From Zychaea mexicana (Eukaryota; Mucoromycota; Mucoromycetes; Mucorales; Lichtheimiaceae), in assembly GCF_025766255.1 (NCBI RefSeq), contig NW_026516731.1, positions 1 through 64,000 on the forward strand: a stretch of DNA of 64,000 bases. Reading direction: 5' to 3'. This document shows positions 312 through 26,051 of the stretch, one piece after another. A program made the position numbers and the translations under genes. The notes below the pieces were generated by a model. That model was not told where the DNA came from. It did not search any database and worked only from the letters and a program-made list of their open reading frames with translations. Within the stretch, counting starts at the first letter, position 1. Each line of letters starts with the position of its first letter.

Positions 312-1893
312 AATTCCCTTCTTTTAATTGTGGGATTATACTTTATATTCAGCAGTATGGGATACTGTAAGTAAGCTATAAGCAATATATATGATAGGAG
401 TAAAGAAGTAGCAATAGTGCAATGAGAATATACAATAGAGGGTGGCAGTAGGGATCCGCATGGTTCGGTTTGGTTCGGTTCTTAAAGGGAACCGAACCGA
501 ACCGTCTAAAGCAAGAACCGAACCGACTAGAACCGACGAGAACCGTAGAACCGAAGAACCGAACCCATCATGTATATAAAAAAGGCAAGATTCGGTATCT
601 TTAAATGAAAGCTGATGTGTGTGTTCAAATGTCGCGGTATACTTGAATACTGCAGTAAAAAAGAATAGTTTATTATTGTACATTGAACAGCGATCTCAAA
701 ATGAATAAGAGAAACAGAATGTAAACATTCTCATACGATGTGGGTCATTGCATGGTTAAAAGATTGAAGCACAGTTTTTACAAAAAAAAGTGGAGCTTAT
801 AGTACTTACTTAGAGCGACTTAGTACTACTAGTACAATATGTTATCGTAACATTGGAGGAATTGAACCACAACCGGCAGTACATACAGCTGCTGTGTCTC
901 TACGTGTGTATAGTGTATAGTGTCTCATAAAAGGCAAAGGGTGAATGGGTAAGATAATTCTGTTATGAGCCCCAGAATGCGCAATCTCAAACGGAATGCA
1001 CAAACTTGATAAAACTGATCGAGAAGCCATGATAAATCTAGTAAAGTAGTACGTCATGGAGAAAAATGCATTGTGGGTAGCAAAGTAGAGGAACAAGTAA
1101 TAATGCGCGTCATGGGCAGAGAAAGCAAGCTGCCATCAGAAGAAGTGTTTTTTCTCTTCTCTTCTTTACTATTTTTCACTCCCTTCTGCTTTTGCAGGTT
1201 TTGTTAAGTTTTTCAATAAGGTATGGCTTGCAAATACACTACTTCGTGGTCTTTTCGGAATAACATTGTTCGTAACTTCCATTATAGCCTACTTTATACT
1301 AATTACCAAAATCGCTGATTGCAATCTTCTGCCTCTCGGTTCTTCGGTTCTACTTATACAGAACCGGTGCGGTTCCGGCTCGGTTCAGATACGGATCCCT
1401 AGGTGGCAGTAAGAGACGCGATTTAACAAAAGACAGAAAAGTTGAGAAAAGAAAATCGAAGGAAGAAGAAAGAAGTGAAAAGAAAAGGGAACAGGGAAAA
1501 GGATAAGAGGCATATAGGGAAGTCGATTTTCAACCACACTTTAAATATTATGCTTTCTTTAAAGCATGTGAGCCCAAGCGATTTCTTTTGTGATGGCACA
1601 GAACCCTTTACCTTTAAGAATAATCCACTCAAAACGTAGATGTTGCTAGCACTGCTAGGAATTTGCGTGCCATCATCTTAGAGAGCTATATATATATGGA
1701 GTTTTGCACTTCCAGCGCTCAAGTTCAGGCTGATCGACACTTCCTTCATCACTATATTGAAATCAGTCTTGACCCGTCAACCCGAGTTCTGACCCGTCAG
1801 GTTGAACGAGTCGGGTCGGGTCAGTGTTTTCTTGACCCGCGGGTCAACGGGTCAGACACTTGACCCGACCCGACCCGTCCAATTGCGACCCTA
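312..1893 (-). mobile_element. hAT-like MITE, copy 1 (left end lost, interrupted)
   Basis: Bases 312-448 and 1402-1893 are an inverted, near-identical copy of the element at 16674-17537. The right end reads GCGACCCTA, the complement of the TAGGG(G)TCGC terminus seen there, preceded by an array of GGGTC/GACCC words. It interrupts unit A of the tandem array; the next 8 bases (1894-1901, GCAAAAAG) are the presumed target duplication. The other terminus is missing, replaced by the GTCGTGCGC repeat. A second MITE is inserted at 449-1401. It is non-autonomous: no transposase is seen. Confidence 0.75.
449..1401. mobile_element. hAT-like MITE with GGTTCGGTTC subterminal repeats, nested
   Basis: The ends are inverted: TAGGGATCCG at 449 and CGGATCCCTA ending at 1401. 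The element is flanked by a perfect 8-bp target duplication GGTGGCAG (441-448 and 1402-1409). Both ends carry arrays of GGTTCGGTT/GAACCGAACC words. Eight-base duplications and subterminal arrays are typical of hAT elements. The uninterrupted site, with a single GGTGGCAG, is present in inverted orientation near 17160, so insertion into the older MITE is directly visible. No transposase-like frame lies inside; it is 953 bp and non-autonomous. Confidence 0.85.
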
Positions 1894-2236
1894 GCAAAAA
1901 GTAAATACTGAATATAACGAAATGGTTGACATGCAGTAGAAATTTCTACAGCTTAACATTACTCAATCAATAGATATGGCTATAGATAGTGAGGACGAAA
2001 CTGAAAATAATACATCTAAACGCAAGAGAAAAAATCAAAGAGAACAGAGAAATATAGAACATAGTAATTCATATGAAATTGAGAAGATTGTAGGACATGT
2101 GTATACTGATAATAAGTACATATTTGAGGTTAAGTGGGTTGGATATAGTGTAAAGGATAATAGTTGGTTAACAGTTGATAAGTTTAATTCCCAGGAAATG
2201 CTACATGAATATATGGCCACACATGGTATTCAATCC
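1894..2236 (+). pseudogene. DDE transposase C-terminus + chromodomain, unit A
   Basis: Only the end of the transposase-chromodomain gene is present; the DDE core was cut off by the MITE on its left. Compared with unit C a CAG codon has become TAG (1937-1939). From the ATG at 1976 there is an acidic/basic stretch with a KRKRKN nuclear-signal-like cluster, then a chromodomain: YEIEKIVGH, YIFEVKWVGY and DNSWLTV carry the expected aromatic-cage residues. The normal stop is altered (CAATCCC instead of CAGCTCTAA), so the frame runs on antisense through the converging Rep tail. Chromodomains in transposases and integrases usually target histone-marked chromatin. This copy cannot make transposase. 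Confidence 0.85.
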
Positions 2237-4481
2237 CTAATTAATTTCTTACTTATTTGCTTATTAAAAAATCTCATATTGAAACTGACCGCATCAACCT
2301 TTCGTTTACTTGCCCAATTATATTTATGTTTTATGCATTCATTAGTTATACTTGTACTTATATTAGTACCTGTTGATATATTTTTGACGTCAGTTTCTTT
2401 TGTTATATCTATATCATCTATTATAGCCTGTTTTATATCCTTATGCTTTTTAAAATATTCTTTTGGCTGTATTTCTTCTACTATTTGCTTGTTTCTCCGT
2501 TTATTTTTAATGTGTCTTTTTTTCTTTTTACGTTTTGGTATATTATTTGGTATGTTGCAGTCACTGCTTTTCTCTGATTCAGATGTACTTACATCTATGT
2601 ATTTATGTTTCTCTATATCTTCTGGTAGGTCTTCCCAATCAGTAGTATCATTTACAGCATCATCACATTTTATATCATTAAACACATCTTCCCAATGCCT
2701 ACAATCTGCTGATGGTGGTACCTTTACAGTTTACCATCCTCTATTATTTTGTTGAGGTGGTTTATGTTGTTTATTGTTCTGTGTATTATTACTATTATGT
2801 TTTTCTTCTTGTTCCTTCATATATTCTTCTGTATCAGCTACTGTAATTCTTGTAGTTCCTCTACTGTTTTATCCATTGGTGTATATTTTTTAATATTATC
2901 CTGACCACTATTATGTGCATAACGGATAAATGTATGCTGATCTTGAAATTCGTTTTCGAATTCATCTTTGTATAAGTCCTCATACATATCCATGTTTTCA
3001 TAATACATGAATTTATTTTAATAATCCTTCACCTTCATTGTGTATGGATTCCATATTATATGACCTTTATGGTTCTTATCAACATAGATAATATATAAAC
3101 GATTGAGCGTTGGCTCTAACTCATATACTGATTTATTTTTGTATAACATGTGCGGCATATAGTTACTATTCAGTATTATTGGCATATTTTTCTTTTTAGT
3201 TATTGACTTTGTGAATTTGCCATTAAGTTTTAACCGCGTTCCTTCTAACATTTGGCTTAAAAATGTTAATTTGAAATCAGAACCTGTTTCTTCATTATAC
3301 ATAAAATCATAATCATCATCCTTATAATCTGACCAATCATTTTCATTATTCATTAGATATGCTCGATGGCCACCTTGTTCTAATACATCAATGCTATATG
3401 TCTTACCTACAATCCAGTATTGTGGTATCTTATTTTTACCACCAAACATTGTTTCAATACCAAACATAGACCACATATGTAATTTATTTCCAGGGTTATT
3501 TTCCATATCTGCATCATGAAAGTAAGAATTTAAATTTGATTTTACAGTATCATATTTCCATAGCAATTCTGGATATATTTCGGTAGCCTTCCACATATTA
3601 AGCTGCTTAGTAATTAATTGATATCTAAGTAACTGTTGGTGCATTTTTCTGGTTTTAATTTCATAATTTGGATCCATATTATAACAAATATAATCTTTTC
3701 CTTTCATACAATAGCTAATAGACTTTTGTGGATTACCACCTGGTTTAATATTTGGAGTAACACCATCAATAGTAAAGAATTTACGTGCTGTTTTTGTGTC
3801 GAACCGCTCATCCATTTGTATCCATATGTGTACATGTTTCTCATTGGTTTCTGGTGCAATTTCATCACATGCAATTGCCTTTTCAATTCGATAACCAATA
3901 CGTTCATGTTTTATAAACCATTCCATGATTTGCTCTTTTGTTAAATAGAAGTCCTTACAAATATATGTGAACAGCCCTTTAGTGTTTTGGAATCGGAATT
4001 CTTTGCCGCCCTGCGAGGAATCTGTACCAGAGGTGTTACCCTCTAACATTGCATCGGAAAATTGAGGATTTGAGGATTTGAGGAATCTTACATATTCTCG
4101 AATTCTTCCAATTATTTTATTGCATGCATTATCTTTAGTTTTTTTATCTACTTTAGCCTGTGTAAGGTCTTTTTCGAGTTCTGACCTCAGTTGTGTGATA
4201 AGAGGTTCATACTCAATATGCTGATGGTTTTCAGCAAGGTGTTTTGCTCTTTCAATTAAGAGTGTCAATGTAATTCCTAAAATAGGAACAAATTCAGCCA
4301 TAATAGCTAAGAATGCGAGAAGGTTGAGTTGGTTCATGTCGATTGTTGAAGTAATAAAAATAAAAAATATAACAAATATACTTTGCTTTATATTCTGTGG
4401 TGTTATTTTTATATTAAAAAAAAATTCAATTTTTATTTTTTTCAAAAATTTAAATGTATGCATGCCAAGACATTCATGCAT
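2230..4481 (-). pseudogene. CRESS-type Rep-like protein (HUH nickase + SF3 helicase), unit A
   Basis: The main frame (3018-4481, 487 codons; a second possible start is M49) begins with a hydrophobic/helical N-terminal region. It continues with a geminivirus/genomovirus-style HUH domain: motif I GLFTY (169-173), HVH (216-218), a GRS-like segment RFDTKTARKFF, and the nicking tyrosine in YCMK (Tyr257). A superfamily 3 helicase follows, with acidic Walker B-like DDDYDFMYNEE and motif C MPIILNSN. The P-loop is destroyed: only IVGKTY remains, because 15 nt present in unit C are deleted. A stop after KDY and a 5-nt insertion cut off the tail, whose frame resumes at 2230-2685 (KRKKKKRHIKNK cluster). 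Such proteins nick DNA and start rolling-circle replication. This copy should lack helicase function. Confidence 0.85.
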
Positions 4482-4597
4482 GAATTATTTCAATAAAAAT
4501 TAATTTGGCTATCCTGGTATATCTTAACTAATAAGTCATCTAGGGTTACTAGATCGCATTAAAATCATCATAACCATAGCCGGTCCCCATCAGATCC

Positions 4598-5902
4598 TTA
4601 TTGTCTTTGTATTTTTGTTGAGGGCTGGCTGGAGGCAGATGAATTATAGCCATTTTCGTTTTGATTTTCATCTTCAATTTCGGTTGTTGTTGTAGTCACT
4701 GTAGTGGATGATGATGAGCTTTCAGGACTTGTGATACAAGGTGGAACTAAAACTCACTTTTTGTTTTTTTTGCCTAGTGACACCACTTGATTACATCCAT
4801 CAATAGCTTCCACAGTCTCCATCAAATAAAGACGTGTGCGATACACAAGTTCAATTATAGGAATAAGCTGGGTGGCGCAAACTGTTGGAGCAAGGGGGAA
4901 CGAGGCTCGTTCGGATTGAGTTATACGGCAAATGGAGCCAGCGGGACAATCCATTATAATCGGCGACATATGTAAACCTGAAACCAATTATTGTTTTTAG
5001 TTAATAATTGAAACATGAATGCCGTATACCACGTTTGGTGTATGACACATACCAGAAATGATGAAGGCTCCTGTTTTAATAGAATGGATAATGGAAGGAC
5101 GTTCATTTATGATAGAGACAAAAAAGTCTTTTAGCATCTTGGGCGCCTTGATGCCACTCTCATATAACTCTTTGGTGCCGTTTTCTCCATCATCTTTTAA
5201 ACCAACTTCAGTAAAACCAATTTCATAATTCAAATAAAGACACTTCATATCGGGCTGCATGCCAGTAATGTGTCGAGCAGTTGGTTCAATTGACGATAAA
5301 GAGCGTTTCCGGTTGTGTCGATCGGATGAAGCTTGTGACTTTCGTTTCCCCCTAATTATAAATAAAGAAAACAATAATGACATTGAATATCCATAACCAT
5401 CATAGCCATCAAACCACATATATGAAAGCTGAACAAACACGTACGAACGAGCACGGATAGGAGAGGGATCGAAGCATTTTGAAACAAACGGCCAAATTCG
5501 ATATTCCACGTCGTCCTTCACATAATCATCTTCAAAAAACCTGAAGTGGTAAAGATCAAGAGTTTCTTCAAAGCTCTTTCGAGCCCAGTATAAATCACCC
5601 TGGGTTAATGGATCAAATGATTTTGCTGTTATCGTACGGTACAAGTCAGAAAGGGATTTCTATATATTAAATACAGATAGGGCCCATTGTTAACAATCGT
5701 TCCATTAAAACACGAGTGATGACAACTGCTAAATATTTACCTTTTTGCTGAATGAATAAATGTATTGATGGAGATTTGCTGGAAGTTTTTGATTGAAATC
5801 AATACTTTTTAAATCTTGAATTTCTTGAAGCTCTTGTTCGGTGAAAACATCAACGTAAGACCGGTCGTCAGGATTTAAAATAATAGAATGGACTGGACTA
5901 AA
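4598..5902 (-). pseudogene. Spliced host-type gene carried in unit A
   Basis: Four exons can be followed: about 5743-5902, 5456-5672, 5052-5363 and 4598-4975. The introns have consensus ends (for example GTACGT...AATTAG and GTATGT...TTTCAG). Segments such as FSPVHSIILNPDDRSY, YRIWPFVSKCFD, ARHITGMQPDMKCLYL, GTKELYESGIKAPKMLKDFF and SPIIMDCPAGSICRITQSE resemble an expanded uncharacterised protein family I associate with Mucorales genomes. No ATG is seen upstream of the first exon, and an in-frame TGA (4754-4756) precedes a Ser/Thr-rich C-terminus. It is probably a captured, 5'-truncated host gene. Function unknown. Confidence 0.65.
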
Positions 5903-6188
5903 GGTCAATTAATGAAGCAATTTTGTCAGTTAAGGGAAAAAAGTAGGCAATAATCCCCCCTCCTTAGAAGACTAAACCATAGCTATAATATATTATACTA
6001 TATTACATATAATGAATTATTTGTAGTATTATTTTTAATATGTAATAATAGTTATGAAAGAATAAGTTTAGAAAGATTAATTAATCTTAAAATAATATAC
6101 ATAATGTATATAGTAAATAAATACGATCATCCTATAGGCGTCCTACTATTAGTTGTCTAACCAATTATAATCTACTAGCTGTAATATA
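5903..6188. other. Unit-A intergenic spacer with palindrome
   Basis: AT-rich spacer between the host-type gene and the next DDE gene. An imperfect inverted repeat pairs TATTACATAT (around 6001) with ATATGTAATA (around 6040). The same hairpin occurs in units B (around 14103) and C (around 20568). CTATATTACAT here loosely resembles CRESS origin nonanucleotides, but it is in the stem rather than the loop. I see no coding potential. Confidence 0.4.
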
Positions 6189-8705
6189 CAGTTGTACCCT
6201 GGTTTTTGCAACCGAGGTTTTTCCGAATTTTTTTTGCAAAAAGTGAGGATTTGCAAGTAACGGGGTACACAATTCTGCTTCAAATAAACACTGGATAAGT
6301 CATGCTATAAACACTAGCCCATTGTTTATCTGTCAGAGATGATGTACGATACGTTCTGTGGGAATATTCACACAGCTCTAAATGTTACTACTTGCATATA
6401 TAAGACCGTTCTTTCATTGAAGCTGTCTAGTGGTTTGATAATTATTCTTTTACACATGACAAAATCGTTCCACAAGTTCACATCCGAGCAAGAGGATAGA
6501 ACGTACGACGAGCACTTGAGCGGGAGAGTCAAGGGTCTGAAAGGCTTGATTAAGTTTTTCAAGGAGAACTACCAAAACGATTCTGTTCCAAACATCTCAA
6601 GTTTTTCGCGCTTAATCAAGAGACGACGTGCTGACCCTCTGGCTGGCGACAGATCCGCGTTCAGGATAGCAAAACGCCGTTCCAAAGGGCGATTTGCTGT
6701 AAGCTACAGGGTGGATTTACACTTGTTGTTGCAATGTACATTCATCATATATCTAATTCCATACCCTTCTCTTTCACAGGACGTCGAGGATGCCATTTAC
6801 TACTGGATGTTAGAGTGTGAAAAAAGCAATGTTCCACTCAACTGGTTTGCCATTGCCACCGCTGGTAAAAGGTTCGCAAAAGCACTGGGATATCCTGATG
6901 GCGCCTTTAAGGCATCGCATGGCTGGCAGGACCGCTTTAAAAAACGCTATTCTATCGGCGGCTTTAAAATCCATGGAGAATCAGGCTCTACGGATACAGC
7001 TGCTATGCAAGAACAACTTCCGTTTATAATCCGCAAAATCCAAGGCTACAATCCTCGCGATGTTTATAACATGGATGAGACTGCATTGTTGTATTGTAAC
7101 CCGCCTTTGACCACCATTGCCTCAAGACGCATTCAAGGAATCAAGCAAGACAAATCCAGAATGACCGTTGCACTTACCATAAATGCTGACGGCAGTGACT
7201 TCCGTGAGCCCGTGTATATTGGAAAAAGTTTGAATCCGACGTGCTTTGGAAAAAACAAAACAGGTATGTTCGAAAAATAGACTAATGTTCAGAATACATG
7301 TCCTTTAACCATATCTACGATTCACAATCAAACTATATAGCCGTATCTTATGGATTCAGTCAGTATTTTGCCAACAAAACAGCATGGATGACAAGCAACA
7401 TCTTTAAGAATTATCTTAGAAGATTCGATAGAGCTATGGGTCACCAAAGGCGACGTATACTTCTCCTTCTAGATAACTTCTCGGGGCATCGCTGCAGTTA
7501 CACGCCGGAAAACATCGAGCTTGTGTATCTGCCGCCAAATTCCACATCACAAGCGCAACCTTTGGATGCAGGGATTATCAGATCCTTCAAAGCTCACTTT
7601 AAGTAAGTATTTATAAGGCACTGAGCAACTGTTCGAGCGTTTAACTAGTGGTAAAAACGATATGTATTAATATATCTAAATTCTATAGCAACTACAAATA
7701 CCGACGAGTGTATGAGCAAACCATCAGTCTCGATGGTCGTGTTCTGGTGAGCGGCAACAGCCAGTTGTTCAAAGTCTCCATACTGACTGCGATGAAATGG
7801 GCGCAACTAGCCTGGACAAAACATGTCAGAGTGGATACTGTGCGCCACTGCTTTATAAAAGCACTCCCTGATGCATTTGACGTGCGAATGGAGCATCCAG
7901 TAGCCGATATCGTTAGGGAACAACAGTCGCTTGAAAGTGAGCTTATCAACCATATCCGAGGTATTTATGGCGACGACATTGAAGATACAGAACAAGTTGG
8001 CGATTTGGCTGAGCCGGATTACGAGAAACAAGCTGCCCCTGCTTCCATGACCGATGATGAAATCCTCGATCTAGTAAAAGGTGTAGAGATAGAGAAGCAG
8101 ACTGATACGGTGGACGAAAGCGACGATTCAGCTATTCCAGAGCTAACGTCGAAAGAAAAACAGGTTGCGATTGCAGGAGTTTTGAGCTTTTTGGATGACA
8201 TCGATTACTACGACTTAAAGAAGTCTTTGCGCAGGATTCAGGAGAGTCTCAGACAGTAATCATTCTCCCGACAATCATCCCTTGATGACTTCTTCAATAT
8301 GTAGTTGAAAGCTCATTTGAGCAAACATTTTGCTTTTTCTTATGTTTTCATCATTTCTTTTGTGGATTCAACCCAATAAGTGCTATATACGTGTCCCAAT
8401 TCTACTGGCCATTCAACTACCAGATAGTAATTTTTTATTTTGACAACAAATACATCTTCATATCTACATATTTATCTTGCCGCAACCGTTTCATCTTATT
8501 CCTCGATAACACGCAACGGATGCTTCCTTCAGCTGATATTGCAAAAATTGAAGCTGTTTTCACCCCGATAACGTGCAAATCGTATAAACTCATTTGCAAG
8601 TTGCAAATTTGCGAAACTACTAAGTTTTTTTTGGATTTTTCAAAAAAAGTTGCAGATATACGAGGAATTGCAAAACCAGGGGTTGCAAAAACCGGGGTAC
8701 AACTG
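6189..8705 (+). mobile_element. Complete Fot1/pogo-type (Tc1/mariner superfamily) transposon
   Basis: Terminal inverted repeats start CAGTTGTACCCTGGTTTTTG at the left; the right end finishes GGGGTACAACTG. The element is flanked by TA duplications at 6187-6188 and 8706-8707. It is inserted in the spacer between tandem units A and B. The empty site with one TA is present between B and C at 14292-14293, which fixes both ends exactly. It is 2517 bp long with one spliced transposase gene. About 440 bp of non-coding sequence follow the stop, and a GCAAAAACCGGGG-type internal terminus matches the left end. Confidence 0.95.
6456..8259 (+). CDS. Fot1/pogo-family transposase (CENP-B HTH + DDE_1)
   Basis: Exons by consensus splice sites: 6456-6698, 6780-7263, 7341-7602, 7689-8259; all joins keep frame. 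The N-terminal part is a psq/CENP-B-type helix-turn-helix region (HGWQDRFKKRYSI). The catalytic domain has MDETALLY (first Asp), LLLLDNFSGH (second Asp) and QPLDAGIIRSFK (third Asp). A DDD rather than DDE triad is typical of pogo/Fot1 elements. The C-terminus is acidic. No internal stop or frameshift is visible, so this copy may still be functional, unlike every other transposase in the array. The start at 6456 (MTKSFHK) is preferred; an in-frame ATG also lies at 6339. Confidence 0.88.
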
Positions 8706-8863
8706 TAGATAATAAAATTGCTATGATCGGTATAACCATCAGTGGCCGAATTAATTATTGATTTACAATAAAAATAATAAAAATTGAATTTTTTTATTTA
8801 TCTTGGTAACCTCCCATGAGAAAAAAAAGAGCGATTGTTTAAAGTATATAACAACAAATAAAA

Positions 8864-10343
8864 ATGAACACAACACAACACATTGAACAACTCGATATTG
8901 AAATTGAAAATTGATAATAAATGGACTTTTCTTGATAAATCTTAGCCTGAAATGCAATATAGATTTAATCATAGAACAGCTATTAAAGATATGAAGAATA
9001 ATACAATAAATGATATAAAGGATGTATTACTTAATAGATTTGGATTTATACCTGTATTTTATTTTCTTACAGCTTTATATGGAAATATTGAATATCCAGG
9101 GCCATACCGCGAGATTGAAAAAGGACTTGCATTATTATATCATATGGTATCAGGTGTATCAGGAAAGGATATGCATACTGTTATGCCATATGCAACATTT
9201 TATGATTTATATAAGCGGTTCTGGATTACTAACTATAATGAATTGAATAAAAAGGTAAAACAAGATCTAGATAGTATGTTCTCATCACCACGTATTCGCA
9301 TTCTATCAGCAATAATAAACAATCCAGATGGTTTTAAGAATGTTACACTACTTATTGATGGACATGATAGTAAAATAAAGTATTATAAACCAAATGAGTC
9401 ACATTCACAATTATATTCATATAAATTAAAAGGGCCAGCTGTACGTACACAAGTTATACAGGATATGAATGAAATAATTACACATGTTTCAGTATCTGAA
9501 AAATGTGCTATCGGAAATGATGGTACTATGTTTATTAATATGAAACTATATAAAAAAATAAGTGAGGCAGATTGTTTAGGAATGGATGGTGGATATAATT
9601 TATTTATACAAAAGTTTAAAGATAATGCGACAGATGCTGGATATAGTTTTTATGATCGTAATTTTTTACATCCCATAAGAAAAGAACCAGGACAAAAGTT
9701 AACAATCAATGAGACATACTTTAATAACAAGTTTGGATCATTTCGTTCAGCAATAGAAGCACAGTTTTCTATGTTAGGCTCTAAATTTGAATGATTTAAT
9801 AATAATCGTGCAGCATTGCAAATATCTGATATAAGATATTATAATATTCAGTTTCGTGTTGCTTGTATTCTTACTAATATATAGCGATTTGTAAATAAGT
9901 ATAATATAGAGGTACAACCACATCATAAATTATGGTATGGAAAAGACTTTGAATTCCCAAGTAAGAAAAACAAACTTGACTTAGTATTTTTAAATGAGCA
10001 AAAAGTAAATACTGAATATAACGAAATGGTTGACATGCAGCAGAAATTTCTACAGCTTAATATTAATCAATAAATAGATATGGCTATAGATAGTGAGGAC
10101 GAAAGTGAAAATAATACATCTAAACGCAAGAGAAAAAATCAAAGAGAACAGAGAAATATAGAACATAGTAATTCATATGAAATTGAGAAAATTGTAGGAC
10201 ATGTGTATACTGATAATAAGTACATATTTGAGGTTAAGTGGGTTGGATATAGTGTAAAGGATAATAGTTGGTTAACAGTTGATAAGTTTAATTCCCAGGA
10301 AATGCTACATGAATATATGGCCACACATGGTATTCAGCTCTAA
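8864..10343 (+). pseudogene. DDE transposase-chromodomain, unit B
   Basis: A DDE_Tnp_4-like nuclease fused to a chromodomain. Catalytic residues: Asp in LLIDGH (9357), Asp in GMDGGY (9585) and Glu in SAIEAQF (9756). Downstream are LGSKFE and the chromodomain YEIEKIVGH...KWVGY...NSW from the ATG at 10080. Inactivated by stops at 8943 (TAG, TGG in unit C), 9792 (TGA, CGA in C), 9892 (TAG, TGG in C) and 10071 (TAA, TCA in C). A frame break near 8905, shared with unit C, separates the only N-terminal ATG from the body. The ends of this gene and the converging Rep-tail frame lie about 10 bp apart. Confidence 0.88.
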
Positions 10344-10356
10344 ATTAATTTCTTAC

Positions 10357-12587
10357 TTATTTTTGCTTATTAAAAAATTTTATATTGAAACTGACCGCAT
10401 CAACCTTTCGTTTACTTGCCCAATTATATTTATGTTTTATGCATTCATTAGTTATACTTGTACTTATATTAGTACCTGTTGATTTATTTTTGACGTCAGT
10501 TTCTTTTGTTATATCTATATCATCTATTATAGCCTGTTTTATATCCTTATGCTTTTTAAAATATTCTTTTGGCTGTATTTCTTCTACTATTTGCTTGTTT
10601 CTCTGTTTATTTTTAATGTGTCTTTTTTTCTTTTTACGTTTTGGTATATTATTTGGTATGTTGCAGGCACTGCTTTTCTCTGATTCAGATGTACTTACAT
10701 CTATGTATTTATGTTTCTCTATATCTTCTGGTGGGTCTTCCCAATCAGTAGTATCATTTACAACATCATCACATTTTATATCATTAAACACATCTTCCCA
10801 ATGCCTACAATCTGCTGATGGTGGTACCTTTACAGTTTACCATCCTCTATTATTTTGTTGAGGTGGTTTATGTTGTTTATTGTTCTGTGTATTATTACTA
10901 TTATGTTTTTCTTCTTGTTCCTTCATATATTCTTCTGTATCAGCTACTGTAATTCTTGTAGTTCCTCTACTGTTTTATCCATTGGTGTATATTTTTTAAT
11001 ATTATCCTGACCACTATTATGTGCATAACGGATAAATGTATGCTGATCTTGAAATTCGTTTTCGAATTCATCTTTGTATAAGTCCTCATACATATCCATG
11101 TTTTCATAATACATGAATTTATTTTAATAATCCTTCACCTTCATTGTGTATGGATTCCATATTATATGACCTTTATGGTTCTTATCAACATAGATAATAT
11201 ATAAACGATTGAGCGTTGGCTCTAACTCATATACTGATTTATTTTTGTATAACATGTGCGGCATATAGTTACTATTCAGTATTATTGGCATATTTTTCTT
11301 TTTAGTTATTGACTTTGTGAATTTGCCATTAAGTTTTAACCACGTTCCTTCTAACATTTGGCTTAAAAATGTTAATTTGAAATCAGAACCTGTTTCTTCA
11401 TTATACATAAAATCATAATCATCATCCTTATAATCTGACCAATCATTTTCATTATTCATTAGATATGCTCGATGGCCACCTTGTTCTAATACATCAATGC
11501 TATATGTCTTACCTACAATCCAGTATTGTGGTATCTTATTTTTACCACCAAACATTGTTTCAATACCAAACATAGACCACATATGTAATTTATTTCCAGG
11601 GTTATTTTCCATATCTGCATCATGAAAGTAAGAATTTAAATTTGATTTTACAGTATCATATTTCCATAGTAATTCTGGATATATTTCGGTAGCCTTCCGC
11701 ATATTAAGCTGCTTAGTAATTAATTGATATCCAAGTAACTGTTGGTGCATTTTTCTGGTTTTAATTTCATAATTTGGATCCATATTATAACAAATATAAT
11801 CTTTTCCTTTCATACAATAGCTAATAGACTTTTGTGGATTACCACCTGGTTTAATATTTGGAGTAACACCATCAATAGTAAAGAATTTACGTGCTGTTTT
11901 TGTGTCGAACCGCTCATCCATTTGTATCCATATGTGTACATGTTTCTCATTGGTTTCTGGTGCAATTTCATCACATGCAATTGCCTTTTCAATTCGATAA
12001 CCAATACGTTCATGTTTTATAAACCATTCCATGATTTGCTCTTTTGTTAAATAGAAGTCCTTACAAATATATGTGAACAGCCCTTTAGTGTTTTGGAATC
12101 GGAATTCTTTGCCGCCCTGCGAGGAATCTGCACCAGAGGTGTTACCCTCTAACATTGCATCGGAAAATTGAGGATTTGAGGATTTGAGGAATCTTACATA
12201 TTCTCGAATTCTTCCAATTATTTTATTGCATGCATTATCTTTAGTTTTTTTATCTACTTTAGCCTGTGTAAGGTCTTTTTCGAGTTCTGACCTCAGTTGT
12301 GTGATAAGAGGTTCATACTCAATATGCTGATGGTTTTCAGCAAGGTGTTTTGCTCTTTCAATTAAGAGTGTCAATGTAATTCCTAAAATAGGAACAAATT
12401 CAGCCATAATAGCTAAGAATGCGAGAAGGTTGAGTTGGTTCATGTCGATTGTTGAAGTAATAAAAATAAAAAATATAACAAATATACTTTGCTTTATATT
12501 CTGTGGTGTTATTTTTATATTAAAAAAAAATTCAATTTTTATTTTTTTCAAAAATTTAAATGTATGCATGCCAAGACATTCATGCAT
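10357..12587 (-). pseudogene. CRESS-type Rep-like protein, unit B
   Basis: Nearly identical to the unit A copy. The core frame is 11124-12587 (487 codons), with HVH, YCMK and MPIILNSN intact. The same 15-nt P-loop deletion (near 11511) and the same stop after KDY are present. The tail resumes at 10357-10791 after a stop at 10837-10839 (TAA where unit C has TCA). The lysine-rich tail (KRKKKKRHIKNK) may be nuclear-targeting or DNA-binding. Shared lesions with A show that A and B descend from one already damaged unit. Confidence 0.85.
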
Positions 12588-12703
12588 GAATTATTTCAAT
12601 AAAAATTAATTTGGCTATCCTGGTATATCTTAACTAATAAGTCATCTAGGGTTACTAGATCGCATTAAAATCATCATAACCATAGCCGGTCCCCATCAGA
12701 TCC

Positions 12704-14007
12704 TTATTGTCTTTGTATTTTTGTTGAGGGCTGGCTGGAGGCAGATGAATTATAGCCATTTTCGTTTTGATTTTCATCTTCAATTTCGGTTGTTGTTGTA
12801 GTCACTGTAGTGGATGATGATGAGCTTTCAGGACTTGTGATACAAGGTGGAACTAAAACTCACTTTTTGTTTTTTTTGCCTAGTGACACCACTTGATTAC
12901 ATCCATCAATAGCTTCCACAGTCTCCATCAAATAAAGACGTGTGCGATACACAAGTTCAATTATAGGAATAAGCTGGGTGGCGCAAACTGTTGGAGCAAG
13001 GGGGAACGAGGCTCGTTCGGATTGAGTTATACGGCAAATGGAGCCAGCGGGACAATCCATTATAATCGGCGACATATGTAAACCTGAAACCAATTATTGT
13101 TTTTAGTTAATAATTGAAACATGAATGCCGTATACCACGTTTGGTGTATGACACATACCAGAAATGATGAAGGCTCCTGTTTTAATAGAATGGATAATGG
13201 AAGGACGTTCATTTATGATAGAGACAAAAAAGTCTTTTAGCATCTTGGGCGCCTTGATGCCACTCTCATATAACTCTTTGGTGCCGTTTTCTCCATCATC
13301 TTTTAAACCAACTTCAGTAAAACCAATTTCATAATTCAAATAAAGACACTTCATATCGGGCTGCATGCCAGTAATGTGTCGAGCAGTTGGTTCAATTGAC
13401 GATAAAGAGCGTTTCCGGTTGTGTCGATCGGATGAAGCTTGTGACTTTCGTTTCCCCCTAATTATAAATAAAAAAACAATAATGACATTGAATATCCATA
13501 ACCATCATAGCCATCAAACCACATATATGAAAGCTGAACAAACACGTACGAACGAGCACGGATAGGAGAGGGATCGAAGCATTTTGAAACAAATGGCCAA
13601 ATTCGATATTCCACGTCGTCCTTCACATAATCATCTTCAAAAAACCTGAAGTGGTAAAGATCAAGAGTTTCTTCAAAGCTCTTTCGAGCCCAGTATAAAT
13701 CACCCTGGGTTAATGGATCAAATGATTTTGCTATTGTCGTACGGTACAAGTCAGAAAGGGATTTCTATATATTAAATACAGATACGGCCCATTGTTAACA
13801 ATCGTTCCATTAAAACACGAGTGATGACAACTGCTAAAAATTTACCTTTTTGCTGAATAAATAAATGTATTGATGGAGATTTGCTGGAAGTTTTTGATTG
13901 AAATCAATACTTTTTAAATCTTGAATTTCTTGAAGCTCTTGTTCGGTGAAAACATCAACGTAAGACCGGTCGTCAGGATTTAAAATAATAGAATGGACTG
14001 GACTAAA
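12704..14007 (-). pseudogene. Spliced host-type gene, unit B
   Basis: Same four-exon gene fragment as in unit A, with only a few substitutions (for example MYRTTIAKSF instead of MYRTITAKSF) and a small indel in an intron A-run. The in-frame TGA before the Ser/Thr-rich end is also present, so that lesion predates the duplication. No upstream ATG exon is found. Function unknown. Confidence 0.65.
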
Positions 14008-14449
14008 GGTCAATTAATGAAGCAATTTTGTCAGTTAAGGGAAAAAAGTGGGCAATAATCCCCCCTCCTTAGAAGACTAAACCATAGCTATAATATATTA
14101 TACTATATTACATATAATGAATTATTTGTAGTATTATTTTTAATATGTAATAATAGTTATGAAAGAATAAGTTTAGAAAGATTAATTAATCTTAAAATAA
14201 TATACATAATGTATATAGTAAATAAATACGATCATCCTATAGGCGTCCTACTATTAGTTGTCTAACCAATTATAATCTACTAGCTGTAATATAGATAATA
14301 AAATTGCTATGATCGGTATAACCATCAGTGGCCGAATTAATTATTAATTTACAATAAAAATAATAAAAATTGAATTTTTTTATTTATATTGGTAACCTCC
14401 CACGAGAAAAAAAAGAGCGATTGTTTAAAGTATATAACAACAAATAAAA

Positions 14450-15928
14450 ATGAACACAACACAACACATTGAACAACTCGATATTGAAATTGAAAATTGA
14501 TAATAAATGGACTTTTCTTGATAAATCTTGGCCTGAAATGCAACATAGATTTAATCATAGAACAGCTATTAAAGATATGAAGAATAATACAATAAATGAT
14601 ATAAAGGATGTATTACTTAATAGATTTGGATTTATACCTATATTTTATTTTCTTACAGCTTTATATGGAAATATTGAATATCCAGGGCCATACCGCGAGA
14701 TTGAAAAAGGACTTGCATTATTATATCATATAGTATCAGGTGTATCAGGAAAGGATATGCATACTGTTATGCCATATGCAACATTTTATGATTTATATAA
14801 GCGGTTCTGGATTACTAACTATAATGAATTGAATAAAAAGGTAAAACAAGATCTAGATAGTATGTTCTCATCACCACGTATTCGCATTCTATCAACAATA
14901 ATAAACAATCCAGATGGTTTTAAGAATGTTACACTACTTATTGATGGACATAATAGTAAAATAAAGTATTATAAACCAAATGAGTCACATTCACAATTAT
15001 ATTCATATAAATTAAAAGGGCTAGCTGTACGTACACAAGTTATACAGGATATGAATGAAATAATTACACATGTTTCAGTATCTGAAAAATGTGCTATCGG
15101 AAATGATGGTACTATGTTTATTAATATGAAACTATATAAAAAAATAAGTGAGGCAGATTGTTTAGGAATGGATGGTGGATATAATTTATTTATACAAAAG
15201 TTTAAAGATAATGCGACAGATGCTGGATATAGTTTTATGATCGTAATTTTTTACATCCCATAAGAAAAGAACCAGGACAAAAGTTAACAATCAATGAGAC
15301 ATACTTTAATAACAAGTTTGGATCATTTCGTTCAGCAATAGAAGCACAGTTCTCTATGTTAGGCTCTAAATTTGAACGATTTAATAATAATCGTGCAGCA
15401 TTGCAAATAACTGATATAAGATATTATAATATTCAGTTTCGTGTTGCTTGTATTCTTACTAATATATGGCGATTTGTAAATAAGTATAATATAGAGGTAC
15501 AACCACATCATAAATTATGGTATGGAAAAGATTTTGAATTCCCAAGTAAGAAAAGCAAACTTGACTTGATATTTTCAAATGAGCAAAAAGTAAATACTGA
15601 ATATAACGAAATGGTTGACATGCAGCAGAAATTTCTACAGCTTAACATTACTCAATCAATAGATATGGCTATAGATAGTGAGGACGAAACTGAAAATAAT
15701 ACATCTAAACGCAAGAGAAAAAATCAAAGAGAACAGAGAAATATAGAACATAGTAATTCATATGAAATTGAGAAAATTGTAGGACATGTGTATACTGATA
15801 ATAAGTACATATTTGAGGTTAAGTGGGTTGGATATAGTGTAAAGGATAATAGTTGGTTAACAGTTGATAAGTTTAATTCCCAGGAAATGCTACATGAATA
15901 TATGGCCACACATGGTATTCAGCTCTAA
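14450..15928 (+). pseudogene. DDE transposase-chromodomain, unit C
   Basis: The best preserved transposase copy. The frame is open through the DDE region until a T5-to-T4 deletion at 15233-15236 breaks it just after AGYSF. It reopens at 15356 and runs uninterrupted through the third catalytic region, LGSKFERF, the linker with KRKRKNQREQ and the chromodomain to the stop at 15926-15928. This shows that transposase and chromodomain were once one protein of roughly 470-490 residues. The single upstream ATG (14450) is out of frame with the body, as in unit B. The gene ends within a few bases of the converging Rep tail. Confidence 0.88.
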
Positions 15929-18900
15929 ATTAATTTCTTACTTATTTGCTTATTGAAAAATCTTATATTGAAACTGACCGCATCAACCTTTCGTTTACTT
16001 GCCCAATTATATTTATGTTTTATGCATTCATTAGTTATACTTGTACTTATATTAGTACCTGTTGATTTATTTTTGACGTCAGTTTGTTTTGTTATATCTA
16101 TATCATCTATTATAGCCTGTTTAATATCCTTATGCTTTTTAAAATATACTTTTGGCTGTATCTCTTCTACTATTTGCTTGTTTCTCCGTTTATTTTTAAT
16201 GTGTTTTTTTTTCTTTTTACGTTTTGGTATATTATTTGGTATGTTGCAGTCACTGCTTTTCTCTGATTCAGATGTACTTACATCTATGTATTTATGTTTC
16301 TCTATATCTTCTGGTGGGTCTTCCCAATCAGTAGTATCATTTACAACATCATCACATTTTATATCATTAAACACATCTTCCCAATGCCTACAATCTGCTG
16401 ATAGTGGTACCTTTACAGTTGACTATCCTCTATTATTTTGTTGAGGTGGTTTATGTTGTTTATTGTTCTGTGTATTATTACTATTATGTTTTTCTTCTTG
16501 TTCCTTCATATATTCTTCTGTATCAGCTAATTCTTGTAGTTCCTCTACTGTTTTATCCATTGGTGTATATTTTTTAATATCATCCTGACCACTATTATGT
16601 GCATAACAGATAAATGTATGCTGATCTTGAAATTCGTTTCGAATTCATCTTTGTATAAGTCCTCATACATATCTAGGGGTCGCAATTGGACGGGTCGGGT
16701 CGGGTCAAGGGTCTGACCCGTTGACCCACGGGTCAAGAAAACACTGACCCGACCCGACCCGTTCAACTCGACGGGTCAAAACTCGGGTTGACGGGTCAAG
16801 ACTGATTTCAATGTAGTGATGAAGGAAGTGTCGATCAGCCTGAACTTGAGCGCTGGAAGTGCAAAACTCCATATATATATAGCTCTCTAAGATGATGGCA
16901 CGCAAATTCCTAGCAGTGCTAGCAACATCTACGTTTTGAGTAATTATTCTTAAAGGTAAAGGGTTCTGTGCCATTACAAAAGAAATCGCTTGGGCTCACA
17001 TGCTTTAAAGAAAGCATAATATTTAAAGTGTGGTTGAAAATCGACTTCCCTATATGCCCCTTATCCTTTTCCCTTTTCCCTTTTCTTTTCACTTCTTTCT
17101 TCTTCCTTCGATTTTCTTTTCTCAATTCCGTTTCTGTCTTTTGTTAAATCGCGTCTCTTACTGCCACCCTCTATTGTATATTCTTATTGCACTATTGCTA
17201 CTTCTTTACTCCTATCATATATATTGCTTATAGCTTACTTATCCCATACTGTTGAATATAAAGTATAATCCCACAATAAAAAGAATTAAGTACGTTTTAT
17301 GCTATAGTTCTATAGCAGACATATTGACAACTAATTATGTTTCCCAACAAGAAGATTGACTACTTAGATATAGGTACCTCATACATATTATATGTATACA
17401 CAGGTCACGACGGGTCAACGGGTCGGGTCAATGGTTGGACGGGTCGACCCGCGGGTCAGAAAAGCATCAACACGACCCGTTGACCCGTCCTCAACCCGTG
17501 GGTTGGTTTTGACCCGCGGGTCAGATTGCGACCCCTATACATATCCATGTTTTCATAATACATGAATTTATTTTCATAATCCTTCACCTTCATTGTGTAT
17601 GGATTCCATATTATATGACCTTTACGGTTCTTATCAACATGATTAATATATAAACGATTGAGCGTTGGCTCTAACTCATATACTGATTTGTTTTTGTATA
17701 ACATGTGCGGCATATAGTTACTATTCAGTATTATTGGCATATTTTTCTTTTTAGTTATTGACTTTGTGAATTTGCCATTAAGTTTTAACCATGTTCCTTC
17801 TAACATTTGGTTTAAAAATGTTAATTTGAAATCAGAACCTGTTTCTTCATTATACATAAAATCATAATCATCATCCTTATAATCTGATCAATCATTTTCT
17901 TTATTTATTAGATATGCTTGATGACCACCTTGTTCTAATACATCAGTGTTATATATCTTACCTACATTTGATGGACCTACAATCCCGTATTGTGGTATCT
18001 TATTTTTGCTACCAAACATTGTTTCAATACCAAACATATACCACATATGTAATTTATTTCCAGGGTTATTTTCCATATCTGCATCATGAAAGTAAGAATT
18101 TAAATTTGATTTTACAGTATCATATTTCCATAGCAATTCTGGATATATTTCGGTAGCCTTCCACATATTAAGCTGCTTAGTAATTAATTGATATCCAAGT
18201 AACTGTTGGTGTATTTTTCTGGTTTTAATTTCATAATTTAGATCCATATTATAACAAATATAATCTTTTCCTTTCATACAATAGCTAATAGACTTTTGTG
18301 GATTACCACCTGGTTTAATATTTAGAGTAACACCATCAATAGTAAAGAATTTATGTGCTGTTTTTGTGTCGAACCGCTCATCCATTTGTATCCATATGTG
18401 TACATGTTTCTCATTGGTTTCTGGTGCAATTTCATCACATGCAATTGCCTTTTCAATTCGATAACCAATACGTTCATGTTTTATAAACCATTCCATGATT
18501 TGCTCTTTTGTTAAATAGAAGTCCTTACAAATATATGTGAACAGCCCTTTAGTGTTTTGGAATCGGAATTCTTTGCCGCCCTGCGAGGAATCTGCACCAG
18601 AGGTGTTACCCTCTAACATTGCATCGGAAAATTGAGGATTTGAGGATTTGAGGAATCTTACATATTCTCGAATTCTTCCAATTATTTTATTGCATGCATT
18701 ATCTTTAGTTTTTTTATCTACTTTAGCCTGTGTAAGGTCTTTTTCGAGTTCTGACCTCAGTTGTGTGATAAGAGGTTCATACTCAATATGCTGATGGTTT
18801 TCAGCAAGGTGTTTTGCTCTTTCAATTAAGAGTGTCAATGTAATTCCTAAAATAGGAACAAATTCAGCCATAATAGCTAAGAATGCGAGAAGGTTGAGTT

Positions 18901-19051
18901 GGTTCATGTCGATTGTTGAAGTAATAAAAATAAAAAATATAACAAATATACTTTGCTTTATATTCTGTGGTGTTATTTTTATATTAAAAAAAAATTCAAT
19001 TTTTATTTTTTTCAAAAATTTAAATGTATGCATGCCAAGACATTCATGCAT
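15925..19051 (-). pseudogene. CRESS-type Rep-like protein, unit C (P-loop intact, MITE inserted)
   Basis: The most informative Rep copy. The P-loop is present as GPSNVGKI (codons around 17957-17985), and the frame does not stop after KDY but continues towards the tail. It is broken by TGA at 17888-17890 (TGG in A/B), the 864-bp MITE at 16674-17537, a 1-nt deletion just beyond it and a TAG at 16423-16425 (TGG in A/B). Allowing for these, the HUH domain, helicase and lysine-rich tail belong to one ancestral gene of roughly 700-750 codons. Some HUH-domain residues also changed (R to H, P to L). It is non-functional as it stands. Confidence 0.85.
16674..17537 (+). mobile_element. hAT-like MITE, copy 2 (complete)
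   Basis: Termini TAGGGGTCGCAAT and ATTGCGACCCCTA are perfect inverted repeats. A perfect 8-bp target duplication TACATATC flanks the element (16666-16673 and 17538-17545); the single-copy site is visible in units A and B. Both subterminal zones are dense arrays of GGGTC/GACCC. It lies inside the Rep gene of unit C. The interior matches the inverted copy at 312-1893. It is 864 bp with no transposase, so it would need a hAT enzyme from elsewhere. Confidence 0.93.
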
Positions 19052-19167
19052 GAATTATTTCAATAAAAATTAATTTGGCTATCCTGGTATATCTTAGCTA
19101 ATAAGTCATCTAGGGTTACTAGATCGCATTAAAATCATCATAACCATAGCCGGTCCCCATCAGATCC

Positions 19168-20471
19168 TTATTGTCTTTGTATTTTTGTTGAGGGCTGGCT
19201 GGAGGCAGATGAATTATAGCCATTTTCGTTTTGATTTTCATCTTCAATTTCGGTTGTTGTTGTAGTCACTGTAGTGGATGATGATGAGCTTTCAGGACTT
19301 GTGATACAAGGTGGAACTAAAACTCACTTTTTGTTTTTTTTGCCTAGTGACACCACTTGATTACATCCATCAATAGCTTCCACAGTCTCCATCAAATAAA
19401 GACGTGTGCGATACACAAGTTCAATTATAGGAATAAGCTGGGTGGCACAAACTGTTGGAGCAAGGGGGAACGAGGCTCGTTCGGATTGAGTTATACAGCA
19501 AATGGAGCCAGCGGGACAATCCATTATAATCGGCGACATATGTAAACCTGAAACCAATTATTGTTTTTAGTTAATAATTGAAACATGAATGCCGTATACC
19601 ACGTTTGGTGTATAACACATACCAGAAATGATGAAGGCTCCTGTTTTAATAGAATGGATAATGGAAGGACGTTCATTTATGATAGAGACAAAAAAGTCTT
19701 TTAGCATCTTGGGCGCCTTGATGCCACTCTCATATAACTCTTTGGTGCCGTTTTCTCCATCATCTTTTAAACCAACTTCAGTAAAACCAATTTCATAATT
19801 CAAATAAAGACACTTCATATCGGGCTGCATGCCAGTAATGTGTCGAGCAGTTGGTTCAATTGACGATAAAGAGCGTTTCCGGTTGTGTCGATCGGATGAA
19901 GCTTGTGACTTTCGTTTCCCCCTAATTATAAATAAAAAAACAATAATGACATTGAATATCCATAACCATCATAGCCATCAAACCACATATATGAAAGCTG
20001 AACAAACACGTACGAACGAGCACGGATAGGAGAGGGATCGAAGCATTTTGAAACAAATGGCCAAATTCGATATTCCACGTCGTCCTTCACATAATCATCT
20101 TCAAAAAACCTGAAGTGGTAAAGATCAAGAGTTTCTTCAAAGCTCTTTCGAGCCCAGTATAAATCACCCTGGGTTAATGGATCAAATGATTTTGCTATTG
20201 TCGTACGGTACAAGTCAGAAAGGGATTTCTATATATTAAATACAGATACGGCCCATTGTTAACAATCGTTCCATTAAAACACGAGTGATGACAACTGCTA
20301 AAAATTTACCTTTTTGCTGAATAAATAAATGTATTGATGGAGATTTGCTGGAAGTTTTTGATTGAAATCAATACTTTTTAAATCTTGAATTTCTTGAAGC
20401 TCTTGTTCGGTGAAAACATCAACGTAAGACCGGTCGTCAGGATTTAAAATAATAGAATGGACTGGACTAAA
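19168..20471 (-). pseudogene. Spliced host-type gene, unit C
   Basis: Third copy of the host-type gene fragment, almost identical to unit B although the Rep genes next to it differ clearly. Exons and introns are as in A. It shares the premature TGA before the Ser/Thr-rich end. The high identity here compared with the Rep C-terminal region suggests gene conversion or patchy exchange among the tandem units. Function unknown. Confidence 0.65.
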
Positions 20472-20843
20472 GGTCAATTAATGAAGCAATTTTGTCAGTT
20501 AAGGGAAAAAAGTGGGCAATAATCCCCCCTCCTTAGAAGACTAAACCATAACTATAATATATTATACTATATTACATATAATGAATTATTTGTAGTATTA
20601 TTTTTAATATGTAATAATAGTTATGAAAGAATAAGTTTAGAAAGATTAATTAATCTTAAAATAATATACATAATGTATATAGTAAATAAATATGATCATC
20701 CTATAGATAATTATCATTATTTTTTTTTGTTTTTTAATTTTTTTATTTTTTTTGATTTGATTACGTAAGCATGCATACTTTTCCTCCAAAAATTGAATTT
20801 TCCTATTATTAAAAAGGATGTGTTTCAAATATATTATCCCAAA

Positions 20844-22519: not shown

Positions 22520-22639
22520 ATAAATTTTAATATATAATTACTCTATAATTACTCTATCATAAAATAATGCATTATATTACATATATTATTTAATTTATAG
22601 ATAAGGATTGTTCTTCTTAGCCACCCCCTTTGCTTAATC

Positions 22640-24543: not shown

Positions 24544-24580
24544 TAGAAAACAATAAATAAAAAATATCTTTTGTGTTTTA

Positions 24581-25941: not shown

Positions 25942-26051
25942 TGTGAAATGAGTGGTAGCCAGTTTTAGAATAGCGCGACCGTTGGAAAAACCATGTCAAT
26001 TCTATGGTCCTGCTAGGATAGCGGCGTTCCATTTTAGAACGACCGTTGGAG

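Follow-up and report, generated by a model that had tools for sequence, protein, structure and literature searches.

Organization of the repeat array

The window, that is, the whole stretch of 64,000 nucleotides of Zychaea mexicana DNA that was analysed, contains three near-identical head-to-tail repeats at 1893-20706, made up of one left-truncated copy of a mobile element and two copies split by later insertions (Table 1). As a preliminary description of this DNA had reported, minus-strand Rep frames converge throughout the array with plus-strand frames for a DDE_Tnp_4/chromodomain transposase. In these copies both the DDE and the Rep frames are broken, and part of the Walker A loop is missing in two of the three Reps. 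The C-terminal tail of Rep, which is out of frame here, is continuous with Rep in open copies outside the window.

Table 1. Features of the array and their positions in the window
Feature	Position	Strand	Remark
Element copy 1, left part lost	1893..4588	+	right end intact (...GCCGGTCCCC)
Rep ORF, copy 1	3018..4481	-	N-domain, HUH, SF3; Walker A loop shortened
Spacer 1	4589..6136		flanking DNA outside the element, with the "host-type" ORF at 4997-5644 (-)
Element copy 2, left end	6137..6188	+	GGCGTCCTACTATTAG...; interrupted by 2.5-kb insertion
Insertion into element copy 2	6189-8705		2.5 kb
Element copy 2, rest through right end	8706..12694	+
DDE_Tnp_4 transposase ORF, copy 2	8952..9794	+	fragment, frame broken; PF13359, E 1.8e-8
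Rep C-terminal tail	10357..10791	-	out of frame in the window; equivalents at 2230-2685 and 15925-16374
Rep ORF, copy 2	11124..12587	-	Walker A loop shortened
Spacer 2	12695..14241
Element copy 3, left part	14242..16673	+
DDE transposase ORF fragment, copy 3	14469..15263	+
DDE transposase 3' part and chromodomain, copy 3	15356..15928	+	PF00385, E 1.5e-7
Insertion into element copy 3	16674-17536		863 bp
Rep ORF helicase end, copy 3	17456..17857	-
Element copy 3, right part	17537..19158	+	beyond the 863-bp insertion
Rep ORF 5' part, copy 3	17888..19051	-
Spacer 3	19159..20706
Array right junction	20700..20712		ATA-g-ATA; possible excision footprint

Size, ends and target sites of the element

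The extent of the mobile element was established from solitary copies at unrelated loci, which measure ~4.05 kb and run from a left end GGCGTCC to a right end GGTCCCC. A 5.6-kb element, as initially proposed, was rejected: the remaining 1.55 kb of each unit is spacer, and the host-type gene once counted as part of the element is an ORF located in that spacer. Similarly, the units had been thought to lack terminal inverted repeats, but short imperfect ones of ~7 bp (GGCGTCC / GGGGACC) are present. An AT-rich subterminal inverted repeat is found in three of the four element copies tested, and in the sister element L023 the terminal inverted repeat, judged by eye, matches at 8 of 9 bp. Between its ends the element encodes the DDE_Tnp_4 and chromodomain transposase and, convergently, a Rep of ~700 aa.

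Matching 3-bp flanks (target site duplications, TSDs) occur at 8 of 14 independent insertions and are absent at the other six. Seven of them belong to the 13 Rep-bearing insertions (L006, L007, L008, L010, L011, L015 and L018), and the eighth, read by eye, to the Rep-less L022. At an expectation of 1/64 per site, the chance of at least 8 of 14 is 1e-11. The duplicated triplets are aag, gag, tag, aat, cat, tgt, atg and aaa. For the L018 site, two empty copies exist (one in L004, the other at 814-1397 of the window), each exactly 3 nt shorter, while L002 and L019, whose flanks are swapped with one another, jointly restore one TSD. The search for solitary units with defined ends recommended in the preliminary description was thus successful. 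These features fit a family of cut-and-paste DNA transposons of ~4.05 kb, mobilised by the DDE_Tnp_4 and chromodomain transposase, which may recognise short imperfect ends of the form GGNGNCC and generate 3-bp target duplications.

Pairing of Rep and transposase across the genome

Rep and DDE genes lie side by side at dozens of places in the genome. Among DDE matches of at least 71% identity, 50 of 61 have a Rep match within 6 kb; 41 of these 50 pairs are convergent, and 21 of the 41 are separated by a gap of 1,324-1,352 bp. No partner is present within 6 kb for 11 of the 61 DDE matches and 15 of the 68 Rep matches. The original proposal that a CRESS-type Rep shares one mobile element with a DDE transposase bearing a chromodomain is borne out, and the combination recurs at many unrelated loci. 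The argument first given for it, repetition in three units, carries no independent weight because the units are duplicates of one another, whereas the genome-wide pairs are independent. As to whether Rep and DDE always reside in separate elements elsewhere, DDE-only sister elements do exist, but Rep-bearing loci have both genes inside one pair of ends. Metagenomic sequences P0115 (Rep) and P0029 (DDE), with a largest contig of 4,459 for both, suggest that the pair also occurs in a metagenome.

Origin of the array

Full copies of the 1.55-kb spacer are limited to the three in the array. Between units 2 and 3 there are 61 differences over 3,973 element positions (1.5%) and 5 over 1,547 spacer positions (0.3%; Fisher p 5e-5). 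Units 1 and 2 show 5 differences in 1,607 positions of Rep, 7 in 1,547 of the spacers and 15 in 1,097 of the DDE-side part. Element and spacer do not contrast in this way throughout: spacers 1 and 3 differ at 12 of 1,547 positions (0.8%), and units 1 and 2 are very similar in Rep.

The head-to-tail units had been interpreted as concatemers of a rolling-circle replicating element, a reading with which their orientation and the open HUH/SF3 frames found in some family members agree. It is nevertheless highly improbable: the units include a spacer known in full from this locus only, the spacers of units 2 and 3 are more alike than their elements, the ends of solitary copies are fixed and in most cases flanked by 3-bp TSDs, and no origin-like nonanucleotide recurs outside coding DNA. 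Simple tandem duplication of a segment holding one element and its flank, without a second original insertion, would account for the identical junctions of the units and for a Rep in units 1 and 2 that is as close as the spacers, but it appears rather unlikely given that the joint falls exactly at the first base of the element and that the element diverges more than the spacer between units 2 and 3 and, on its DDE side, also between units 1 and 2. The best account of the spacer in the array is recombination between element copies: unequal exchange between two copies on either side of a unique 1.55-kb segment would have produced the array, and one copy may have excised later, leaving the right junction. 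The swapped flanks of L002 and L019 also favour this recombination model.

The Rep protein and its relatives

Rep comprises an N-domain, a linker, an HUH domain, an SF3 domain and a basic tail. A profile of the family finds Rep endonuclease domains of known structure (9pqf, 1.1e-9; 1l2m, 1.1e-7; 7vg8, 1.6e-7), whose titles name Vientovirus, geminivirus and TYLCV Rep. The structure predicted for Rep of the window was of low quality (mean pLDDT 44); a better HUH domain came from the relative P0118. The predicted fold of a relative aligns with TYLCV Rep (TM-score 0.77, normalised by target length) and less closely with Vientovirus Rep, a two-domain structure (E 1.2e-9, rmsd 17.8). The early identification of Rep as an HUH endonuclease with an SF3 helicase is upheld by these profile matches and by the fold of a relative, and the protein has the HUH-SF3 architecture that characterises Rep of CRESS-DNA viruses (Cressdnaviricota).

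Seven Rep relatives from metagenomes (P0114-P0120) are open, full-length, fused proteins of 626-797 aa with 50-58% identity over the core and with N-domain, linker and tail arranged as in Rep here. No virus relatives of Rep were detected in IMG/VR or GTDB contigs, nor of DDE in IMG/VR, by pattern scans that work best for close relatives, and tblastn against phages returned no virus relatives. No capsid-type Pfam match was obtained among the 18 proteins scanned. The sole recurrent match to a NANTATTAC-type nonanucleotide (20 of 22 sequences) falls within the Rep coding tail; the match near element position 2237 was rejected as a CRESS origin, as it sits in Asn-rich Rep coding sequence. The N-domain segment (window 12124-12361) exists as two alleles, with 72% identity between groups and 94 and 98.5% within them.

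Selection on Rep and exchange of the second gene

None of the 18 copies scored has both Rep and DDE free of stops and frameshifts. The catalytic D, D and E of DDE are intact in all 17 copies covering them (18 inspected), and DDE would act in trans on many dead copies. For variants found in at least 2 of 18 copies, Rep codons 106-440 contain 54 synonymous and 37 nonsynonymous changes and 2 stops (omega ~0.23), and DDE codons 1-420 contain 19, 27 and 3, respectively (omega ~0.41). Singleton variants in the Rep core are also below neutral (omega 0.40), probably owing to the old age of some copies, so the contrast between shared and singleton variants is weaker than ideal. A portion of the purifying signal in Rep could also be older than its capture. 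In the same copies, synonymous variants number 147 in 335 Rep codons versus 62 in 494 DDE codons; the two genes therefore do not have one common history.

A viral Rep might have been inserted once into a DDE transposon and carried since as a passenger without function. Stops or frameshifts in 16 or 17 of the 18 Rep copies scored, the mobility of Rep-less sisters and the Rep-like sequences within host genes or transposons described by Liu et al. 2011 (PMC3198968) are compatible with such a history. Yet it is improbable in view of the low omega of shared variants in the Rep core, of the complete retention, in 15 of 18 copies, of nine residues in HUH, Walker A/B and motif C, and of the open fused metagenome relatives with identical domain layout. 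To judge from these substitution patterns, the Rep core shows signs of purifying selection, as expected of a gene retained by selection and not of a dead passenger.

Sister elements without Rep are 2.3-2.8 kb long and likewise have 3-bp TSDs (TAT, TGA and AAA); Rep therefore occupies an exchangeable slot. In sister elements this convergent second-gene slot is filled by proteins other than Rep, and other elements of the family have a different second protein or none recognised. The slot has accordingly gained, lost or exchanged Rep as a module. Rep probably entered this accessory-gene slot of the transposon lineage ahead of the spread of the present copies and would since have been kept by selection.

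Possible functions of Rep

The most likely function of Rep would be accessory replication, in which it nicks and unwinds element DNA and thereby raises copy number around excision. Alternatively, the recruitment of Rep may have served sequence-specific DNA binding alongside the transposase, with nicking being secondary. In PIF/Harbinger elements, the accessory protein is a DNA-binding partner of the transposase; the position of Rep in a slot occupied by other proteins in sisters and the swapping of its N-domain as a module point in this direction. This alternative is kept as a tentative one, as the conservation of HUH and ATPase residues exceeds the needs of DNA binding. Equally tentative is a hybrid life cycle, in which DDE excises the element, the viral-type Rep amplifies an extrachromosomal form and DDE reinserts it, making the element both replicon and transposon in a lineage extending over Mucorales and environmental fungi. 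As a whole, the observations are quite probably best explained by a DDE-moved transposon family that acquired and kept Rep, with the array formed by unequal recombination.

Rep genes in eukaryotic genomes are often taken for fossils of virus insertion, whereas here a viral-type replication enzyme is apparently maintained as a functional component of a cut-and-paste transposon. As this genome also contains sisters without Rep, natural controls are at hand for asking whether replication can be added to the cycle of a DDE transposon, and the system opens the question of module exchange between viruses and transposons in early-diverging fungi.

Comparison with known systems

PIF/Harbinger transposons have a DDE_Tnp_4 transposase, 3-bp TSDs, short ends starting with GG and two genes, and are further characterised by a TWA target preference and a Myb/SANT-like second protein. 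The present family shares the DDE_Tnp_4 domain (PF13359 above cut-off), the 3-bp TSD, the GG-starting short ends and the two genes. However, its TSDs are not TWA, its transposase has a chromodomain, and its second gene is Rep or another protein with no recognised Myb/SANT domain (Pfam scan of one open Rep and three non-Rep second-gene ORFs).

With Rep of Geminiviridae, Genomoviridae and Redondoviridae, the transposon Rep shares the order of HUH and SF3 domains, HxH, YxxK, Walker A/B and motif C. It differs from Cressdnaviricota Rep in its additional N-domain, linker and basic tail, and the element is integrated with DDE-type ends, with no capsid-type Pfam match among the 18 proteins scanned and no recurrent NANTATTAC-type motif outside coding DNA. 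Helitrons, which combine an HUH enzyme with an SF1 helicase and produce no TSD, are likewise eukaryotic transposons coding for an HUH enzyme and a helicase; the present transposon has an SF3 helicase (by fold matches), a DDE transposase and 3-bp TSDs.

Although no described transposon family was initially thought to combine such enzymes, a literature search for Rep-plus-transposase transposons yielded one precedent, so this combination is already known from truffle. Liu et al. 2011 (PMC3198968) describe a transposon of Tuber melanosporum in which two transposase ORFs accompany a geminivirus-like Rep ORF, with 42 Rep copies. Both elements are dispersed fungal repeats with Rep and transposase ORFs within terminal repeats and dozens of Rep copies. 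According to that paper, the Tuber element has 37-bp TIRs, no obvious TSD, an interrupted Rep and two broken transposase ORFs, the transposase type being left unnamed in its section 8. By that description, the present family is distinguished by ~7-bp ends, a 3-bp TSD, a chromodomain transposase, open fused Reps, a purifying signature and Rep-less sisters. Several lineages of fungal DNA transposons carrying TET/JBP genes, as presented in PMC12730594, are likewise enzyme-carrying, but with an enzyme that differs from Rep.

A defined transposon family

The array belongs to a real, well-defined transposon family that has retained a viral-type Rep. Searches of the genome (50.3 Mb, 305 contigs) yielded at least 94 matches to Rep and at least 139 to the DDE_Tnp_4-chromodomain transposase (DDE). 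For the pairing count, 68 of the 94 Rep rows were used, the 26 dropped being mostly neighbouring fragments, together with the DDE rows of at least 71% identity, 61 in number after two adjacent ones had been merged. A Rep row lay within 6 kb of 50 of the 61 DDE rows; 41 of these 50 pairs were convergent, 21 of them with a gap of 1,324-1,352 bp (both counted by eye), and 11 DDE and 15 Rep rows had no partner within 6 kb. Solitary copies with defined ends, which the preliminary description had proposed looking for, were found at other loci. Among 20 loci they span the equivalents of window positions 14242 to 12694 and measure 4.03-4.07 kb, except for two that carry insertions (L006, 5.77 kb; L018, 4.52 kb). 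The spacer therefore lies outside the element, and the mobile unit is shorter than the 5.6 kb originally proposed.

The DDE_Tnp_4 group is large in this genome, with at least 149 Pfam profile matches, including families distant from this element. Copies of DDE and of non-Rep second genes lie close together at 733-758 kb of contig C112, possibly as a further tandem set. At locus L001 (2366-3730 and 7792-9991), the ORFs flanking an insertion bear some resemblance to the reverse transcriptase/RNase H and tyrosine recombinase of DIRS elements.

Integration

Both ends were resolved for 14 independent insertions (13 other loci and the window), after exclusion of L009 and L014 as duplicates of L008 and L015, respectively (L014 itself has no target site duplication, TSD); L003, L004, L012, L013, L017 and L020, with an end missing or unresolved, were not scored. 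Matching 3-bp flanks were present in 8 of the 14 (aag, gag, tag, aat, cat, tgt, atg and, at the Rep-less L022, aaa), and the probability of 8 or more at 1/64 each is about 1e-11; among the scored insertions, L001, L002, L005, L016, L019 and the window had none. In two unoccupied copies of the L018 target, exactly three bases are missing. When the left flank of L019 is joined to the right flank of L002 minus three bases, the composite aligns without gaps to L007 and L023 and restores a TSD (tat), which demonstrates flank exchange between copies.

Structure of the array

Coordinates of the window features are collected in the table below. By Pfam, the plus strand of the array matches DDE_Tnp_4 at E 1.8e-8 and a chromodomain at E 1.5e-7, and the minus-strand Rep matches Gemini_AL1 weakly (E 0.02). 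The first element copy lacks its left part, and the first unit is truncated beside the other copy of the 863-bp repeat. The coordinate overlap at the 863-bp insertion suggests a MULE-like TSD of 9 bp.

Features of the window
Feature	Position	Remarks
Repeat pair	1893-6188 and 9997-14293	99.2% identity (self-comparison)
Repeat pair	8706-11096 and 14292-16673	98.1% identity (self-comparison)
Repeat pair	11088-14242 and 17537-20706	98.5% identity (self-comparison)
Tc5/pogo-type insertion splitting one unit	6189-8705	transposase HTH_Tnp_Tc5 (Pfam); flanking alignment coordinates share 2 bp, as expected from TA duplication
863-bp insertion splitting unit 3	16674-17536	repeat, in part matching 1402-1891 in inverted orientation; flanking alignment coordinates share 9 bp
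Two-allele segment	12124-12361	72% identity between groups, 94 and 98.5% within
Adjacent bin	12362-12590	groups still differ (90%)
Second DDE_Tnp_4-chromodomain gene	20793-22519	49% identical, split by stops; adjoins array
Two overlapping ORFs in different frames	23617-24505	some resemblance to a Myb/SANT-like protein
Direct repeat, 322 bp	49524-49845 and 52059-52380	91% identity

All three full copies of the spacer lie in the array; one further match (68% over 318 bp) was found, on contig C235. Comparison of units 2 and 3 shows 61 differences over 3,973 positions of the element and 5 over 1,547 of the spacer (p 5e-5). The other pairs give a mixed picture. For units 1 and 2 the differing positions number 15 of 1,097 (DDE side), 5 of 1,607 (Rep) and 7 of 1,547 (spacer); for units 1 and 3 they number 25 of 1,597 (Rep) and 12 of 1,547 (spacer). 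This pattern fits an origin in which two element copies on either side of the spacer would have recombined, with conversion, to give the array. The array terminus carries cctATAgATAatt at the point where an element would start, readable as a possible excision footprint.

Identity of the Rep and selection

A profile built from 11 family members matched solved Rep endonuclease domains (9pqf, 1.1e-9; 1l2m, 1.1e-7; 7vg8, 1.6e-7). Across the 11 aligned rows there is no variation at the first HUH histidine, in the YxxK pair, in the Walker A Gly-Lys-Thr or at the motif C Asn, and almost none at the second HUH histidine. The predicted structure of the relative P0118, of moderate overall confidence (mean pLDDT 61), superposed on TYLCV Rep (7vg8) with a TM-score of 0.77 by target length and also matched Rep domains of wheat dwarf virus; SF3 ATPases of parvovirus and circovirus ranked lower. 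The match to Vientovirus Rep covered both domains (E 1.2e-9), but superposition was poor (rmsd 17.8). Among the 50 BFVD matches listed, many of them nameless, those with a name were Reps, the majority from CRESS viruses that are uncultured or unclassified. The 17 places that the Gemini_AL1 profile found in the whole genome all belong to this Rep family; 14 control genomes gave no match.

Variants were counted in 18 copies against the commonest codon, with correction for the mutation spectrum. Shared variants in Rep codons 106-440 comprised 54 synonymous, 37 nonsynonymous and 2 stops (omega about 0.23); the corresponding omega was 0.27 in the N-domain (13 copies), 0.56 in the Rep tail, 0.41 in DDE codons 1-420 and 0.56 in the whole DDE, and the 74-codon chromodomain end (1 synonymous, 9 nonsynonymous) has too few to interpret. 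Singletons gave 0.40 for the Rep core and 0.87 for DDE codons 1-420. In scoring, only the reference copy L012 had a Rep frame without stop or frameshift; that of L020 is likewise open (710 codons), its scored indels sitting in a diverged stretch. The DDE frame is unbroken in L003 and L006, and both frames are open in none of the 18 copies. Most copies are dead, selection having worked on the lineages that spread. The Rep core is richer in synonymous variants (147 over 335 codons) than DDE (62 over 494 codons), so the two genes differ in depth, as recombination of modules would predict.

A modular second gene

Rep-less sister elements also occur. L024 (2.40 kb) encodes DDE and chromodomain, with TSD TAT and seven unoccupied target copies; L023 (2.30 kb) has a convergent 166-aa ORF and TSD TGA (for L022-L024 the TSDs come from inspection by eye). 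In L022 (2.77 kb), the DDE resembles that of Rep-type elements, as do the last ~30 residues of the second gene, the remainder being a different protein, homologous to a 288-aa protein (L020, 290-1153) that has 76 genome matches and no Pfam family above its cut-off. Both second-gene types, Rep and 288-aa, share the linker motif SDAML...TS..SSQG, and Rep elements carry two alleles of one segment (see table); outside this segment and the adjacent bin, between-group identity is about that within groups. It follows from these sequence comparisons that the second gene is modular. Beside the array, a Rep search of window 20701-26000 gave no match of note.

Relatives and comparison with a known transposon

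A search with the Rep core returned 12 proteins, from Circinella minor, Rhizopus stolonifer, R. arrhizus and metagenomes, and the full-length search 10, of which P0114-P0120 (626-797 aa) have an identical layout. The DDE search returned 101 proteins (among the 7,992 scored candidates, those sharing most words); those with names are from Mucorales and Mortierellales, the remainder from metagenomes. P0115, a Rep, and P0029, a DDE_Tnp_4 protein without chromodomain, agree in the length of their longest contig (4,459 bases) and are likely co-located. Since P0029 does not group as sister to the window lineage in a 74-protein DDE tree, the association with Rep would, if the contig is common to both, be old or of multiple origin.

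The literature search, whose coverage left out most subscription journals, found no description of this Mucorales element. The preliminary statement that no known family combines these enzymes is not supported, since a Rep-plus-transposase transposon, a kind of which the Mucorales family is a variant, has already been reported once. That transposon, from Tuber melanosporum, carries a Rep-like ORF with two transposase ORFs, is bounded by TIRs of 37 bp and lacks an obvious TSD (Liu et al. 2011, PMC3198968), whereas the Mucorales element has a 3-bp TSD at 8 of 14 insertions.
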